A DNA stretch of 44,568 bases from an uncultured Alphaproteobacteria bacterium (GTDB taxonomy: Bacteria; Pseudomonadota; Alphaproteobacteria; CADEGL01), in contig CADEGL010000003.1 of assembly GCA_902826885.1 (NCBI GenBank), positions 6,660 to 51,227 of the forward strand, in the 5' to 3' direction. Under the pieces are notes generated by a model. It did not search any database, was not told where the DNA came from, and worked only from the letters and a program-made list of their open reading frames with translations. Positions 19,407 through 26,501 of the stretch are shown piece after piece. Every line of letters starts with the position of its first letter. Position 1 is the first letter of the stretch. Made by a program: the position numbers and the translations under genes.

Positions 19407-19852
19407 TGTCTGATCTGCGCGACCTCTATCAGGAAGTGATCGTCGACCACAGCAAGCGGCCGCGGAATTTCGGCAAGCCCGCGGACGTGCACCAGCACGC
19501 CGATGGCCACAACCCGCTGTGCGGCGACACGGTCACGGTCTATCTGACCGTCGAGGGCGGCAAGGTGGCCGACGTGTCGTTCGAGGGGCGCGGCTGCGCG
19601 ATCTCGATGGCGTCGGCCTCGTTGATGACCGAGGCCGTCAAGGGCAAGACTGTGGCCGAGGCGCGTGCGATGTTCGAGCATTTCCATCGCCTGGTTACCG
19701 GCAAGGACGAGTTTCCCGACGACGCGCTGGACAAGCTGGCCGTGTTCGAGGGCGTGCGCGACTATCCCGTGCGGGTCAAATGCGCGACCTTGCCGTGGCA
19801 CACGCTGGTGGCTGCGCTCGAATCCCGCGCAGAAGCCGTTTCGACCGAATAG
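19406..19852 (+). CDS. sufU: SufU, zinc-dependent sulfur-transfer partner of SufS
   Basis: A 148-residue IscU-fold protein. The ligand set is C39, D41 (NPLCGD), C64 (GRGCAISMAS) and C126 (RVKCATLPWHTL). The insert before C126 and the CATLPW motif, instead of the LPPVK-HC motif for HscA binding, mark it as SufU rather than IscU. In the Bacillus system SufU binds zinc and accepts the persulfide from SufS by ligand swapping. The absence of hscA and hscB in the operon agrees. Start at 19406 overlaps the sufS stop by one base. Confidence 0.93.
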   Translation: MSDLRDLYQEVIVDHSKRPRNFGKPADVHQHADGHNPLCGDTVTVYLTVEGGKVADVSFEGRGCAISMASASLMTEAVKGKTVAEARAMFEHFHRLVTGKDEFPDDALDKLAVFEGVRDYPVRVKCATLPWHTLVAALESRAEAVSTE

Positions 19853-19858
19853 GAAGCC

Positions 19859-20309: not shown

Positions 20310-20651
20310 TTGGCCGAACGACCCAAAGCGATCTCGTTGACGGATGCGGCGGCGGAACGCGTGCGCTATCTCATGGCGCAGCACAGCCAGCCGGCCTCGG
20401 GCCTGCGCCTCTCGGTCGAGAGCAAGGGCTGCTCGGGCCTCTCCTATAAACTCGAATATGTCGACCAGAAGGCGCCCCACGACGAGACCGTCGAGGACAA
20501 AGGCGTCACCATCTTCATCGACCCCAAGGCGATCCTGTTCGTGCTGGGAACGGAGATGGACTATGCCGAGGACAAATTCCATTCCGGGTTCGTGTTCAAG
20601 AATCCGATGGAAAAAGGCCGTTGCGGCTGCGGCGAGTCGTTCCACGTTTGA
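20310..20651 (+). CDS. iscA: A-type Fe-S carrier (IscA/HesB family)
   Basis: A 113-residue carrier with the three cluster ligands C41 (SKGCSGLSY), C105 and C107 (GRCGCGESF). It is close in pattern to the IscA/ISCA1 branch (LGTEMDYAEDKF, FVFKNP). It accepts clusters from the Suf scaffold and hands them to apo-proteins. The start is a TTG at 20310: GAAGGAG (20295-20301) stands 8 bases before it and no ATG gives a full-length protein. The 40 bases upstream contain the candidate internal promoter. Confidence 0.93.
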   Translation: MAERPKAISLTDAAAERVRYLMAQHSQPASGLRLSVESKGCSGLSYKLEYVDQKAPHDETVEDKGVTIFIDPKAILFVLGTEMDYAEDKFHSGFVFKNPMEKGRCGCGESFHV

Positions 20652-20701
20652 TGCCGCCCGCGTTTGATATCGAAGGGCGCTCCGCGCGCCCGGTGTAGCC
20701 C

Positions 20702-21034
20702 ATGCCCAAGATCATCGTCATCGAACCCGATGGAACCCGGCGCGAACTGGACGCGCCCGTGGGCAAGTCGCTGATGCAGATCGGCCGAGACGCGGGTCTC
20801 GACATCGAAGGCGCGTGCGATGGCGCCATGGCGTGTTCCACTTGCCACGTCTATGTCGAACCGGCTTGGGTGGCGAAGTTGCCCAAGATGGGCGAGGACG
20901 AGTCCGACATGCTGGACTTGGCCTTCGGCGTCACCGACCGTTCGCGCCTGGGCTGCCAGATCGTGATGACCGAAGAGTTGGACGGCTTGACCGTCGCTCT
21001 GCCCAAAAACACGCGCAACGCGCTGCTGGGCTAA
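20702..21034 (+). CDS. fdx: [2Fe-2S] ferredoxin, adrenodoxin type
   Basis: A 110-residue ferredoxin with ligands C39, C45, C48 and C85 (C-x5-C-x2-C-x36-C), the pattern of ISC-type and adrenodoxin-like ferredoxins. It supplies electrons for cluster assembly. It closes the operon, as fdx closes the isc operon in gammaproteobacteria. No strong ribosome-binding site is visible. Its stop is separated by one base from the stop of the opposing lipoprotein gene, with no clear terminator; a 7-bp dyad CCCGATC/GATCGGG (21042-21063) lies just beyond, inside the opposing gene. Confidence 0.95.
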   Translation: MPKIIVIEPDGTRRELDAPVGKSLMQIGRDAGLDIEGACDGAMACSTCHVYVEPAWVAKLPKMGEDESDMLDLAFGVTDRSRLGCQIVMTEELDGLTVALPKNTRNALLG

Positions 21035-21035
21035 T

Positions 21036-21353
21036 TTACCGCCCGATCGTTCCCATGATCGGGTGATCGCGCTCATCGGCGTAGCATTGCACGTACGCCT
21101 CCTGCCAACCGCTTTTGTAGTCGGCGCTCGTCTCGAAGAGGGATTCGTCGCGGACCCAGGTCGTTTGGGTCGTGGGCGCCTGCGCGTCGAAGCGGCCGTC
21201 ATAGCAGCCGGCCGTGTAGCCGTTCTGGTATTCGGATGAACCCGGCGGAACGCGGGAGCAGCTTGCCAGGATCAGCGCGATCGCCAGCCAAGCGCCGTGG
21301 CGCTGCGCCGCCGCTAAGTGCCGGTGTTGGACATCGAAGGATGGTCGAGCCAT
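21036..21353 (-). CDS. Small lipoprotein, array member 7 (most distal)
   Basis: A 105-residue predicted lipoprotein; I do not recognise the family. The hydrophobic signal segment ends in the lipobox L-A-S-C (C32). The mature part has the array consensus: PPG, then EYQNGYTAGC, a central VRDE, then DYKSGWQEAYVQCY and a terminal HPIMG. The two cysteines of GYxxGC and xxxxCY are conserved in all seven members and may form a disulfide. It is the last of seven tandem paralogues and overlaps member 6 by 40 bases. Closest to members 5 and 6, which share the x-RDE block. No enzyme motif is visible. Confidence 0.75.
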   Translation of the reverse strand: MARPSFDVQHRHLAAAQRHGAWLAIALILASCSRVPPGSSEYQNGYTAGCYDGRFDAQAPTTQTTWVRDESLFETSADYKSGWQEAYVQCYADERDHPIMGTIGR

Positions 21354-21640
21354 TTGCGATAGCAGGCGACGTATCCCTGCTGCCAGCCGTCCTTGTAGTC
21401 GGGCTGCCCCGCGATGCGGCCTTCGTCGCGCATCCATGTCGTCTGCCCGGTCTGCGCGCCGGGCGCGTCGACGGCCGCGTCGTCGCAACCGGCATGGTAG
21501 CCGTCTTGAAAGTTGGGTGTGCCGGCCGGTGGCTGGTGGCATCCTGCCATCGCAAGGCTGATCGAGAGCCATAGGAGCGAACCGAGGCGTCTTAACCCCG
21601 GTTGTCCATCTCCGGATACTCGGTCGCGTCGCGGTAGCAC
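21314..21640 (-). CDS. Small lipoprotein, array member 6
   Basis: Mature part typical of the array: lipobox-like M-A-G-C, PPAGTPNFQDGYHAGC, MRDE, DYKDGWQQGYVACY, HPSM. Function unknown. The start is uncertain: there is no ATG before the signal segment in frame, and the GTG at 21640 (inside member 5) gives 108 residues with the same position relative to the upstream gene's last cysteine codon as the TTG proposed for member 3. This makes a 49-base overlap with member 5, so translation is probably coupled to it. The coding sequence from about 21590 down to 21314 is secure. Confidence 0.68.
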   Translation of the reverse strand: MLPRRDRVSGDGQPGLRRLGSLLWLSISLAMAGCHQPPAGTPNFQDGYHAGCDDAAVDAPGAQTGQTTWMRDEGRIAGQPDYKDGWQQGYVACYRKWLDHPSMSNTGT

Positions 21641-21888
21641 TTGGCGTAACCCTGCTGCCAGCCGTTCTTGTAGTCGGGCTTCGTGCGGTACAGCGTATCG
21701 TCCCGCATGTATTCGACCTGATCGGACGGCCCGCCCGCGTCGAACGTTCCGTCGCTGCAGCCCGCTGTGTAGCCTTCCTCGAATAGCGGCGAGCCCGGCG
21801 GCTGGTGGGAGCATCCCGCGATCAACACGATCGCCGCGATGCAAGCCGCGCGTGCCAGCATTTCAATTCCGATCCCTTGAGCCCGCAT
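21592..21888 (-). CDS. Small lipoprotein, array member 5
   Basis: A 98-residue predicted lipoprotein (71 mature residues). Signal segment LARAACIAAIVLIAGC with lipobox I-A-G-C; then QPPGSPLFEEGYTAGC, YMRDD, PDYKNGWQQGYAKCY, YPEM. An alternative start ATG at 21861 would give a 16-residue signal peptide and also looks natural. Members 5, 6 and 7 form a subgroup sharing the central [MV]RD[ED] block. A GC-rich hairpin lies in the 64-base gap between member 4 and this gene. Confidence 0.75.
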   Translation of the reverse strand: MRAQGIGIEMLARAACIAAIVLIAGCSHQPPGSPLFEEGYTAGCSDGTFDAGGPSDQVEYMRDDTLYRTKPDYKNGWQQGYAKCYRDATEYPEMDNRG

Positions 21889-21893
21889 CGGTT

Positions 21894-21917
21894 CCCGCCC
21901 CCTTTTGAAGGGGCGGG
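21894..21917 (-). promoter_or_regulatory. GC-rich hairpin between lipoprotein genes 4 and 5
   Basis: CCCGCCCC (21894-21901) and GGGGCGGG (21910-21917) form an 8-bp GC stem around an 8-base loop, a few bases upstream of the longer start of member 5. There is no U tract. It may slow ribosomes or polymerase, protect an mRNA end or limit initiation at 21888; the last would favour the start at 21861. Confidence 0.45.
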
Positions 21918-21952
21918 AGTGTCGGTGCCGAATGTTACCGAATTGCGACGGC

Positions 21953-22297
21953 TCAGCGCTGGCCCATCATCGGCTGGTTTTCTTCGGACTGATAACAGGC
22001 GGCATAACCCTGTAGCCAACCCTCGTGATACTGCTGGTTGTTGTTGAACTTGACCTTGTCCTTCACGAACACGTCTTCCATGCCGCGCCGGCCGGCGTCG
22101 CCGTAGCCGGAGTCGCAACCGTCGGAATAGCCGGCCTGAAAGTCGGGCGTGCCGGGCGGAACGTCGCCCGCGCCGGTGGTCTTGCACGATGCGGTCGCAG
22201 CCACGAGAACCAGGAGGCCGCATGCGGTGACGGCCTTCTGGAAGCGGATCTTGATGGAGTCGGTCACGTTAGGGTGCCCCATGTTGGGAAGGTTCAT
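21953..22297 (-). CDS. Small lipoprotein, array member 4
   Basis: A predicted lipoprotein of up to 114 residues. The signal segment is AVTACGLLVLVAATASC; the lipobox T-A-S-C is less typical than in its paralogues, so a periplasmic soluble form is possible. Mature consensus: VPPGTPDFQAGYSDGC, VKDKVKF, QYHEGWLQGYAACY, QPMMG. The ATG at 22297 lacks a clear ribosome-binding site; a GTG at 22264 is an alternative. It is, with member 1, the most divergent in the central region (GRRGMEDVFVKDK compared with [12 protein letters not shown]). Confidence 0.73.
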   Translation of the reverse strand: MNLPNMGHPNVTDSIKIRFQKAVTACGLLVLVAATASCKTTGAGDVPPGTPDFQAGYSDGCDSGYGDAGRRGMEDVFVKDKVKFNNNQQYHEGWLQGYAACYQSEENQPMMGQR

Positions 22298-22339
22298 AGG
22301 ACGGTTGTAGCAATTGGCAGGCCCTCTAAGCCAGCCGCG

Positions 22340-22666
22340 TCATTTCGCCGCCCCCATGGTCGGAAAGTTCATCTGTTCATTGAAGCATTCGATTTCGCCC
22401 TGGACCCAACCGCGATGATACTCCTCGTCCGAAGTGAAGCGCGATTCGTTGCGGTAGAACAATGCCTCGAATCCCGGCTTGGCCGCCAAGCCCCAGCCGG
22501 ACCAGCAACCGTCGATATAGCCGCGTTGGAAGGCCTCCGAGCCGGGCGGGGGAATCGAGCCGACGGCCTCGCAGGCGGAGAGGAGCGCGGCCAAGGCGAA
22601 GATGCCAAGGCGCCGCGCCGGGCGGCCTAACCCATCTGGGGTGAGCTCATCTGCTGCTGGTAGCAA
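22340..22666 (-). CDS. Small lipoprotein, array member 3
   Basis: Predicted lipoprotein with lipobox L-S-A-C, PPPGSEAFQRGYIDGC, then WSGWGLAAKPGFEALFYRNE, EYHRGWVQGEIECF and FPTMG. It pairs closely with member 2 (both read DGCW[ST]GWG-x-A-x-KP-x-FE). The start is uncertain: a TTG at 22666 lies inside member 2 (40-base overlap) and gives 108 residues; there is no in-frame ATG near the signal segment. Translation is probably coupled to member 2. The final aromatic after the second cysteine is Phe instead of Tyr. Confidence 0.68.
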   Translation of the reverse strand: MLPAADELTPDGLGRPARRLGIFALAALLSACEAVGSIPPPGSEAFQRGYIDGCWSGWGLAAKPGFEALFYRNESRFTSDEEYHRGWVQGEIECFNEQMNFPTMGAAK

Positions 22667-22911
22667 TCGGCCTGCCCTTCGTCCCAACCGCGCTTGTAGT
22701 CCGGATCGGACAAATACCGACCATCGTCCTTGTAGTAGGCGTTCTCGAAGCTGGGCTTGCCCGCGACGCCCCAGCCGGTCCAGCAGCCGTCGATATAGCC
22801 GGTCTTGAACGACGGCGAGCCCGGGGGCGCCCAGGACGGCGCGCCGCGGCCGGTATCGCACGCGGCCAGTGCCAGAAGGCATGCGAATGCGAACCCTGCG
22901 CGCTTGCTCAT
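22627..22911 (-). CDS. Small lipoprotein, array member 2
   Basis: A 94-residue predicted lipoprotein. Signal [18 protein letters not shown] with lipobox L-A-A-C; mature part APPGSPSFKTGYIDGC, WTGWGVAGKPSFENAYYKDD, DYKRGWDEGQADCY, SPQMG. The ATG at 22911 overlaps the stop of member 1 (ATGA, 22908-22911) and begins a normal n-region, so it is preferred over the open-frame ATG at 22962. Member 3 begins inside its 3' end. Function not recognised. Confidence 0.78.
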   Translation of the reverse strand: MSKRAGFAFACLLALAACDTGRGAPSWAPPGSPSFKTGYIDGCWTGWGVAGKPSFENAYYKDDGRYLSDPDYKRGWDEGQADCYQQQMSSPQMG

Positions 22912-23189
22912 CCAGAACCCATATCGCGGTTGCGGGTCGTGCGCTGGTCGACCGAGAAGCACTCGCCGTAACCCCGGCCCCAGCCCGCCTGGTACTCGGG
23001 GTTGGCCTTCATCTTCTCGTCCTCGACCCGGTCATTATAGCCGCGCACGCCCACATCCGCCCAGGCGGAGCGGCAGCCATCCTTGTAGCCCGTCTGGAAG
23101 ATGGGCGTACCTGGCGGCACGCTCATGTTGGTGCAGGCGGCAAGCGCTGCCGCCAGGCCAAATGCCGCCAAGTGGCGTGAAAATCCCAT
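22908..23189 (-). CDS. Small lipoprotein, array member 1 (first gene)
   Basis: A 93-residue predicted lipoprotein and probably the founding end of the operon. Signal [19 protein letters not shown] with lipobox L-A-A-C, then [51 protein letters not shown]. The C-terminus ([10 protein letters not shown]) keeps the terminal MG but lacks the proline. A good GGAGGGGG site precedes the ATG, and a sigma70-like promoter lies about 45 bases upstream. Divergent from mnmA. Confidence 0.8.
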
Positions 23190-23231
23190 TGTCTGCCCCC
23201 TCCGGAACCCAGGCTGGCCCAGGCGCGGCGC

Positions 23232-23259
23232 ATCTTACGCGCTTTCCCGATGCCGCCAA
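23232..23259 (-). promoter_or_regulatory. Promoter of the lipoprotein array
   Basis: On the minus strand TTGGCG (23254-23259), a 16-base spacer and TAAGAT (23232-23237). Each hexamer matches 4 of 6. It would start RNA near 23225, with a leader of about 36 bases containing the GGAGGGGG ribosome-binding site of member 1. No other promoter-like sequence stands out in the rest of the array. Confidence 0.45.
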
Positions 23260-23271
23260 CGCCCCGCTCGC

Positions 23272-23299
23272 TTGTCCTGGCGCGGCTTGCGTCTATAGT
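23272..23299 (+). promoter_or_regulatory. Promoter of mnmA, placed for a leaderless transcript
   Basis: TTGTCC (23272-23277), a 16-base spacer and TATAGT (23294-23299). The -10 ends 7 bases before the mnmA ATG (23307), so transcription would begin at or next to the start codon. No ribosome-binding site exists between the -10 and the ATG. Confidence 0.55.
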
Positions 23300-23306
23300 C
23301 CCCGCC

Positions 23307-24428
23307 ATGAACGGCTTGGGCATCGACAAAGCGCCGGCCGCCACGCGGGTCGTGGTGGCCATGTCGGGCGGCGTGGACAGCGCCACCACGGCCGCGCTGC
23401 TCGTGGAGCAGGGTTATGAGGTGGTCGGCATCACCTTGCAGCTCTACGACCATGGGCAGGCGGTCGCGAAGTCGCGCGCCTGCTGCGCGGGCCAGGACAT
23501 TCACGATGCGCGGCGGGTGGCCGACGCGCTGGGCATTCCCCACTACGTGCTGGATTACGAGCGGCGCTTTCACGACGAGGTGATCGCGCCCTTCGCCGAC
23601 GGCTATATCGCCGGCGAAACGCCGATTCCCTGCGTGTTGTGCAATCAGACGGTCAAATTCCGCGACCTCCTGGCAGCGGCGCGTGATCTGAATGCCGACG
23701 CGCTGGCCACCGGTCATTATGTCCGTCGCGCGGATGGGCCGGAGGGCGCCGAGCTGCACCGCGCGGCCGACGAGACGCGCGACCAGAGTTATTTCTTGTT
23801 TCGCACTACGCGCGAGCAGCTCGCATTCCTGAGGTTTCCCCTGGGTGACCTATCCAAGAATGAGACACGCGCGCTGGCGCATCGTTTCGCTTTGCCGGTG
23901 GCGTCCAAGCCCGACAGCCAGGACATCTGCTTCGTGCCGGACGGCGACTATGCGCGGCTGGTGACGAAGTTGCGGCCGGGCGCCGCCGAACCCGGCGAGA
24001 TCGTCGATCTTTCGGGTCACGTACTAGGCCGTCATGAGGGCATCATCCACTACACGATCGGCCAGCGGCGCGGGATCGGGCTGGCCTCGCCCGAGCCCTT
24101 GTTCGTGGTGCGGCTTGAGCCCACGCGCCGGCGGGTGGTCGTGGGGCCGCGCGCGGCACTGGGCCGTGATCGCGTGCGCCTGGGCGAGGTGAATTGGCTT
24201 GGCGTGCGATCTGGACCGCCCGAGGGTGCGCGCATGCGAGTGAAACTGCGGGCCACGGCGCCGGCGGCGGACGCGACGCTTTATCGCTTGGCCGGCGGTG
24301 GCGTCGAGATTGCGCTGGACACGCCGCAGCAGGGCATCGCGCCGGGCCAGGCGTGCGTCTTCTATGATGGCGCGCGGGTGCTGGGCGGGGGCTGGATTCT
24401 ACGCGAGGCGGCGGTACAGGCCGCCTGA
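23307..24428 (+). CDS. mnmA: tRNA 2-thiouridylase
   Basis: A 373-residue enzyme that puts sulfur on U34 of tRNA-Lys, -Glu and -Gln, using ATP and persulfide sulfur. The PP-loop SGGVDS is at 20-25; the catalytic cysteines are C112 ([11 protein letters not shown]) and C208 ([12 protein letters not shown]). ATGHYVR and HYTIGQRRG are further hallmarks. The ATG at 23307 gives the expected N-terminus; the open frame back to 23250 crosses the promoter. The sulfur is supplied by a cysteine desulfurase, of which two are encoded 4-10 kb upstream. Confidence 0.96.
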
Positions 24429-26425: not shown

Positions 26426-26501
26426 GGCGGCGTAGCTCAGCTGGTAGAGCAGAGGAATCATAATCCTTTGGTCGGGGGTTCGAGTCCCTCCGCCGCTACC
26501 A
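26426..26501 (+). tRNA. tRNA-Met (CAT), elongator type
   Basis: A complete 76-base cloverleaf with encoded CCA. Acceptor GGCGGCG pairs with CGCCGCT (one G-U at 1-72); D stem GCTC/GAGC; anticodon stem GAGGA/TCCTT around the loop ATCATAA (anticodon CAT, 26458-26460); 5-base variable loop; T stem GGGGG/CCCTC with loop TTCGAGT. The first acceptor pair is G-U, not the mismatched C-A of initiator tRNA, so it is not fMet. The anticodon arm matches alphaproteobacterial elongator tRNA-Met; a lysidine-modified tRNA-Ile2 is the less likely alternative. Confidence 0.95.

Follow-up and report, generated by a model that had tools for sequence, protein, structure and literature searches.

A tandem array of seven small lipoprotein genes of an undescribed family in an uncultured alphaproteobacterial genus

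Introduction

Why would a bacterium carry seven different versions of one small lipoprotein gene side by side, and what might their products do? The question is raised by a 44,568-nucleotide stretch of DNA (hereafter the window) from an uncultured Alphaproteobacteria bacterium (assembly GCA_902826885.1, contig CADEGL010000003.1, positions 6,660 to 51,227). An original prediction made from the sequence had described seven consecutive minus-strand lipoprotein genes of no named family, which would have arisen by nested duplication and been kept by selection for diversity or dosage.

Results and discussion

Seven minus-strand open reading frames, spanning exactly positions 21036-23189, were confirmed as tandem lipoprotein paralogs, each coding for a protein of about 90-110 amino acids with a lipobox and the common consensus. 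They were named in the order of transcription, from M1 (22908-23189) to M7 (21036-21353). A profile built from the seven sequences matched each member at E-values of 3e-38 to 9e-33 in a search of the genome, so the likeness within the array is unlikely to be due to chance. The original count of seven genes stood, but the same profile revealed what had been missed: three further copies beyond the window, on contigs C54, C35 and C96 of the same genome, and a relic of an eighth copy within the array (22274-22339, minus strand), consisting of the C-terminal 22 codons of a lost copy and matching profile positions 70-91 (E 0.02).

The members were compared with those of a sister genome (G001), the sole other genome of the genus among those searched. 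Gene ends overlap at M1/M2, M2/M3, M5/M6 and M6/M7, and not all of the starts listed originally could be retained, several lying elsewhere than at the first ATG. M1 (93 amino acids) begins with ATG and overlaps M2 (22627-22911, 94 amino acids) by ATGA. M3 (22340-22666) lacks an ATG close to its signal peptide and would probably start at a TTG (22666) that is present in both species, 40 nt inside M2. For M4 (21953-22267), a GTG at 22267, which the sister genome replaces by TTG, is a likelier start than a longer ATG start at 22297, which would read through the relic. M5 (21592-21888) codes for 98 amino acids. M6 (21314-21640) lacks an ATG and has at best a GTG at 21640, 49 nt within M5. Lastly, M7 (105 amino acids) has an ATG 40 nt inside M6; the sister genome instead has another ATG, past the M6 stop. 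Three members, M3, M6 and M7, seem to begin within the gene before them, an arrangement consistent with translational coupling.

A perfect, G+C-rich 11-bp hairpin (21893-21919, minus strand) ends 4 nt before the ATG of M5, where the M1-M4 block gives way to the M5-M7 clade described below. Its folding energy was -31.1 kcal/mol for 68 nt (z -3.1 against shuffled sequences), and its pattern has no other exact match in the genome. The sister genome has the same stem with an altered loop. The purine-rich, presumed ribosome-binding stretch sits in the 3' arm; the hairpin could hide this site or divide the operon, and it may control the translation of M5. No Rfam RNA family was found within positions 20500-24000.

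The mature domains of the array paralogs share 25-49% identity. In a phylogenetic tree, M5-M7 formed one clade (98/98), and M2 and M3 formed a second group together with two dispersed, non-array copies (99/95), while M1 sat on a long branch without placement. Both closer groups proposed originally were recovered, except that the M2-M3 group also takes in the two copies from elsewhere. M2 is nearest to the dispersed copy on contig C54, with 73% identity over the mature part. This clade structure supports growth of the array by nested duplication, as had been proposed, with traffic between the array and other loci. The C54 copy (19612-19857) follows a KdpD/KdpE-like gene pair and adjoins an assembly run of N; this copy and the one in G002, a genome from another genus of the same family, both have an EmrB-like transporter gene nearby (gene names read from sequence rather than from profiles).

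The columns invariant among the seven proteins are the lipobox cysteine, P, G, G-Y, G-C, Y, G-W, C and M. In all seven, the lipobox cysteine is preceded by [LASVI]-x-[AGS], which places them in the class of bacterial lipoproteins and predicts their lipidation. The two invariant cysteines noted originally hold for the mature domain, but the count becomes three with the lipobox cysteine included. We extended the comparison to 63 full-length homologs from Alphaproteobacteria and a gamma-type family. Both mature-domain cysteines were present in 63 of 63, as was the GC dipeptide of helix 1; YxxGWxxG occurred in about 60 of 63, [FY]xxG and YxxGWxxG were both nearly invariant, and a linker [RK][DN] pair was common (52 and 53 of 63). 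No invariant His, Ser, Asp, Glu or other polar residue was found in the 63 homologs. Variation was seen in the loop, in the residues that follow the lipobox and in the C-terminal tail. A role as metal-binding subunit, one of those suggested originally, is unlikely, since the invariant positions are the cysteine pair and glycine and aromatic residues, with no further metal ligand.

Structures were predicted with AlphaFold2 for M1 and M5, using alignments headed by M1 (30 rows) and M5 (28 rows). The mean pLDDT was 83 for M1 and 85 for M5, with helix blocks at 88-98. Helices were predicted at residues 29-45 and 64-91 of M1 and at residues 34-50 and 71-90 of M5. Both models showed the same architecture: a signal helix is followed by helix 1, which bears the GC motif, then by a short helix and by helix 2, which bears the GW motif and the second cysteine. 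M1 and M5 are thus confidently predicted to be the same two-helix hairpin. Foldseek searches with both models and a search of a viral fold library returned nothing significant, and no relative was found by sequence among solved structures (best E 0.44).

Not every copy may sit in the same membrane. M2 carries Asp at position +2 after the lipobox cysteine, a residue that in E. coli would hold a lipoprotein in the inner membrane, so the array copies may differ in location. Lipidation is moreover not universal in the family, because one branch, found in both array-bearing genomes (G000, the genome of the window, contig C96, 2575-2793; G001, contig C21, 91514-91726), has a signal peptide and lacks a lipobox; it appears to be a soluble periplasmic version.

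The original prediction knew of no named family with this consensus, and the profile search that it called for gave no strong match to a described domain family: no model of Pfam, NCBIfam, PHROGs or PADLOC reached its curated cut-off. Pfam gave no match for the seven window members or for 30 family members at E-values up to 0.5 or 1. Three weaker likenesses were followed up. DUF2799 (PF10973) also comprises small lipoproteins and has a W/G-x-D-G motif followed by Yxx[GR]xxGLxxYC, but its first mature cysteine lies in the loop and it has further cysteines. The 95% hhalign probability against this family stems from the common signal peptide, falling to 2% without it, and 4 of 100 column shuffles reached the score; with the Pfam gathering score not reached, membership was rejected. 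The Alvin_2107 family of globule sulfur oxidation (NCBIfam NF049856) shares a 19-residue YxxGWxxGY helix motif, and 16 of 30 members matched it weakly (best E 2.5e-5; profile probability 76% over 19 columns). The best window member scored 19.9 bits over 22 residues against a cut-off of 60 bits, and every match fell well short of that threshold. In the 59-residue model, whose span includes no signal peptide, the GW motif comes first and GYxDG second; the order is reversed in the array proteins, which add the lipobox and the cysteine pair, whereas the NF049856 copies read here mostly lack cysteines. A link to sulfur globules, based on this one helix motif, was therefore rejected, and a published mention of an Alvin_2107 homolog had no bearing on the array lipoproteins.

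Lastly, the ribosome modulation factor RMF (PF04957) is also a two-helix hairpin with GYxxG and GWxxG motifs, but it is cytoplasmic and has neither a lipobox nor a cysteine pair of the array type. The RMF structure 2jrm topped the PDB fold matches of both models by probability (0.15 and 0.21), with Foldseek E-values of 7.4 and 4.5 that are not significant. The hhalign probability against RMF was 4%, from two RMF rows only; 0 of 100 shuffles reached the score, and there was no Pfam hit. It is conceivable, if improbable, that an RMF-related hairpin was moved to the periplasm, stapled by a disulfide, and turned into a combinatorial array in one genus. Chained copies would then meet different envelope partners with different loops, and each start would lie in the 3' end of the preceding copy, so that a lost copy leaves its end behind. 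The likenesses to DUF2799, Alvin_2107 and RMF may equally be convergent uses of a glycine/aromatic helix-packing motif.

The array of the sister genome is syntenic, lying between the ferredoxin gene and mnmA; a contig scan with a narrower alignment matched this genome only. M3-M7 are intact there. M1 is a pseudogene, with an in-frame TAA at codon 36 in place of the Tyr codon that the M1 of the window shows in FQ(x)GY. M2 has lost its middle to an internal deletion, which spares the signal peptide and the last codons; the latter stretch holds the proposed M3 start. The relic between M3 and M4 is common to both genomes, and a stop interrupts the same stretch in the sister genome. For codons outside the overlaps with neighbouring members, dN/dS between the two genomes was 0.14 for M3, 0.36 for M4, 0.14 for M5, 0.05 for M6 and 0.33 for M7, with a pooled value of 0.18; for comparison, the same genome pair gave 0.23 for M1, 0.086 for mnmA and 0.072 for ferredoxin. 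M3-M7 are under purifying selection, which supports the original view of selection on the array for most of its copies. M6 has the lowest value in the array, though the least clear start, and as the most constrained member it is, judging by its codons, surely translated.

The view that all seven copies had been kept did not survive this comparison. Decay of copies in related genomes, which had been named in advance as grounds against the proposal, was found for two of the seven and not for the other five. Given the stop in M1, the largely deleted M2 and the persisting relic, the array evolves by birth and death. The tandem lpl lipoprotein clusters of Staphylococcus, a Gram-positive genus, likewise consist of head-to-tail paralogs with copy-number turnover; the proteins themselves are unrelated.

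These results bear on dosage, the second selective force suggested originally. The copies could be redundant, together supplying a single structural envelope lipoprotein in abundance, an Lpp/OprI-like effect of quantity with little functional difference between them, as the presumed single operon of coupled genes, the shared predicted fold of M1 and M5 and the loss of two copies in the sister genome would allow. Pure dosage would, however, favour near-identical copies. The paralogs, at 25-49% identity, are much less alike than the orthologs of any one copy, which argues that the copies were kept distinct, and C-terminal residues for Lpp-type linkage to peptidoglycan are not conserved. We consider this explanation unlikely.

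A survey of copy number in relatives, also proposed originally, was carried out at two scales, scoring the best 12-17 candidates per genome, so that absences are lower bounds on presence. With a 21-row profile and a threshold of E 0.001 or better, at least 28 of 289 sampled Alphaproteobacteria, the query genome included, had a match; on this lower-bound reading, the family was absent from about 90% of those sampled. Matching genomes had one copy each, except in the array genus (10 each) and in G083, a genome from a different family of the class, whose five copies are dispersed (contigs C25, C28, C42, C52 and C119) and constitute a second, independent expansion. In the phylum-wide survey, the gamma-type, Pseudomonas-like family f182 had one copy in most matches. 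Homologs are thus normally single-copy. In locus L141 the gamma homolog is flanked by rtcA and ccpA-like genes and may be PA4586, on which a literature search found no paper.

Among the genomes searched, only those of this genus have the array itself. In G003, from another genus of the same family, a tenA-like gene occupies the gap between the ferredoxin gene and mnmA, where no family member is present; in G002, a tenA-like gene lies upstream of mnmA and no ferredoxin match was found within the fetched flank. The tenA-like label was in both cases read from sequence rather than from a profile.

Around the array lie Suf-type Fe-S assembly genes, the ferredoxin gene (convergent, 1 nt from the M7 stop), mnmA and an AI-2E-type transporter gene. 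Farther along the window, a tRNA-Met (CAT) gene was observed at 26426-26501 (plus strand); the ABC transporter reading frame listed from 26414 runs through it, so the true start of that gene lies downstream. The Fe-S neighbours invite a reading in which the cysteine pair is redox-active and reports or relays the oxidative state of the periplasm rather than stapling the fold. Exported proteins in which both cysteines are absolutely conserved would suit such a thiol module. The two cysteines nevertheless sit on separate helices and form no CxxC, and the Fe-S neighbourhood is probably incidental, since homologs of other lineages do not adjoin Fe-S genes and the corresponding G003 locus has no array. 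We regard a redox role as very unlikely.

Could the array instead defend the cell? Each lipoprotein might provide immunity against, or inhibit, a different periplasm-acting toxin or lytic enzyme of competitors, the diversity of copies being the point. Tandem, diversified small periplasmic lipoproteins with turnover, built on a constant scaffold with a variable loop and tail, would fit such an arms race. The array flanks, however, contain no adjoining toxin or secretion gene, leaving the inhibitor role put forward originally with no toxin partner at the locus. The neighbours of single-copy homologs vary by lineage with no recurring toxin, PADLOC (anti-phage defence) gave no match for 30 members, and dN/dS between orthologs of the two species stays below 0.4, a sign of conservation and not of diversification. 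Searches of plasmid, phage and viral collections likewise gave no match with the queries used, for which reason an origin from mobile elements was also rejected. An immunity function is accordingly improbable.

Some neighbours of the single-copy homologs do recur. A DUF2336 gene is divergent from the homolog at 13 alphaproteobacterial loci (L043, L075, L079-L082, L084, L086, L088-L091 and L147; Pfam confirmed one representative), and a ParA-like gene often lies on its far side. Lnb_N/DUF4105, Lnb_N/DUF7840 and DUF3015-like genes lie near several gamma copies. In Bacteroides, Lnb acts as a lipoprotein N-acyltransferase (PMC12994826). A literature search on DUF2336 found no paper. Neither the DUF2336 nor the Lnb_N and DUF3015-like genes occur near the array, and assignment of a function from neighbourhood was abandoned. 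No function for the array was rested on the Lnb neighbour, and no partner is nameable from neighbours that differ between lineages.

Overall, we favour, by a little better than an even chance, the explanation that the array proteins are non-enzymatic, probably disulfide-stapled, lipid-anchored periplasmic hairpins, serving as binding or scaffold modules that diversify by local duplication. A binding or scaffold role is the most likely because only fold-type residues are conserved, with nothing resembling a catalytic or metal site, and the other parts vary. A scaffold, an adhesin or a sensor, the latter two suggested originally, would be equally compatible with the findings. Each protein would leave the cytoplasm through the Sec pathway, receive its lipid on the lipobox cysteine and stay anchored to a membrane on the periplasmic side. 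Its mature domain would fold as a two-helix hairpin, with [FY]xxGYxDGC in helix 1 and YxxGWxxGYxxC in helix 2; aromatic residues and glycines at a spacing of four residues would pack the helices, and a single disulfide would most likely join the two invariant cysteines. The variable loop, post-lipobox flank and C-terminal tail may set the choice of partner. In one genus, local duplication between the ferredoxin gene and mnmA would have produced the array, presumably one transcription unit with coupled translation, whose copies turn over by birth and death.

Conclusions

The array belongs to a family of compact lipoproteins that had not been described and is marked by a cysteine signature without exceptions, found in Alphaproteobacteria and in a gamma family that looks well studied, where the single-copy homolog is open to knockout. 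Its diverged copies, two inactivated copies and relic form a natural series for learning which copies matter and by what steps coupled lipoprotein arrays grow and shrink. A family that is mostly present in one copy or absent in bacteria has been multiplied by one uncultured genus, which is still gaining and losing copies.
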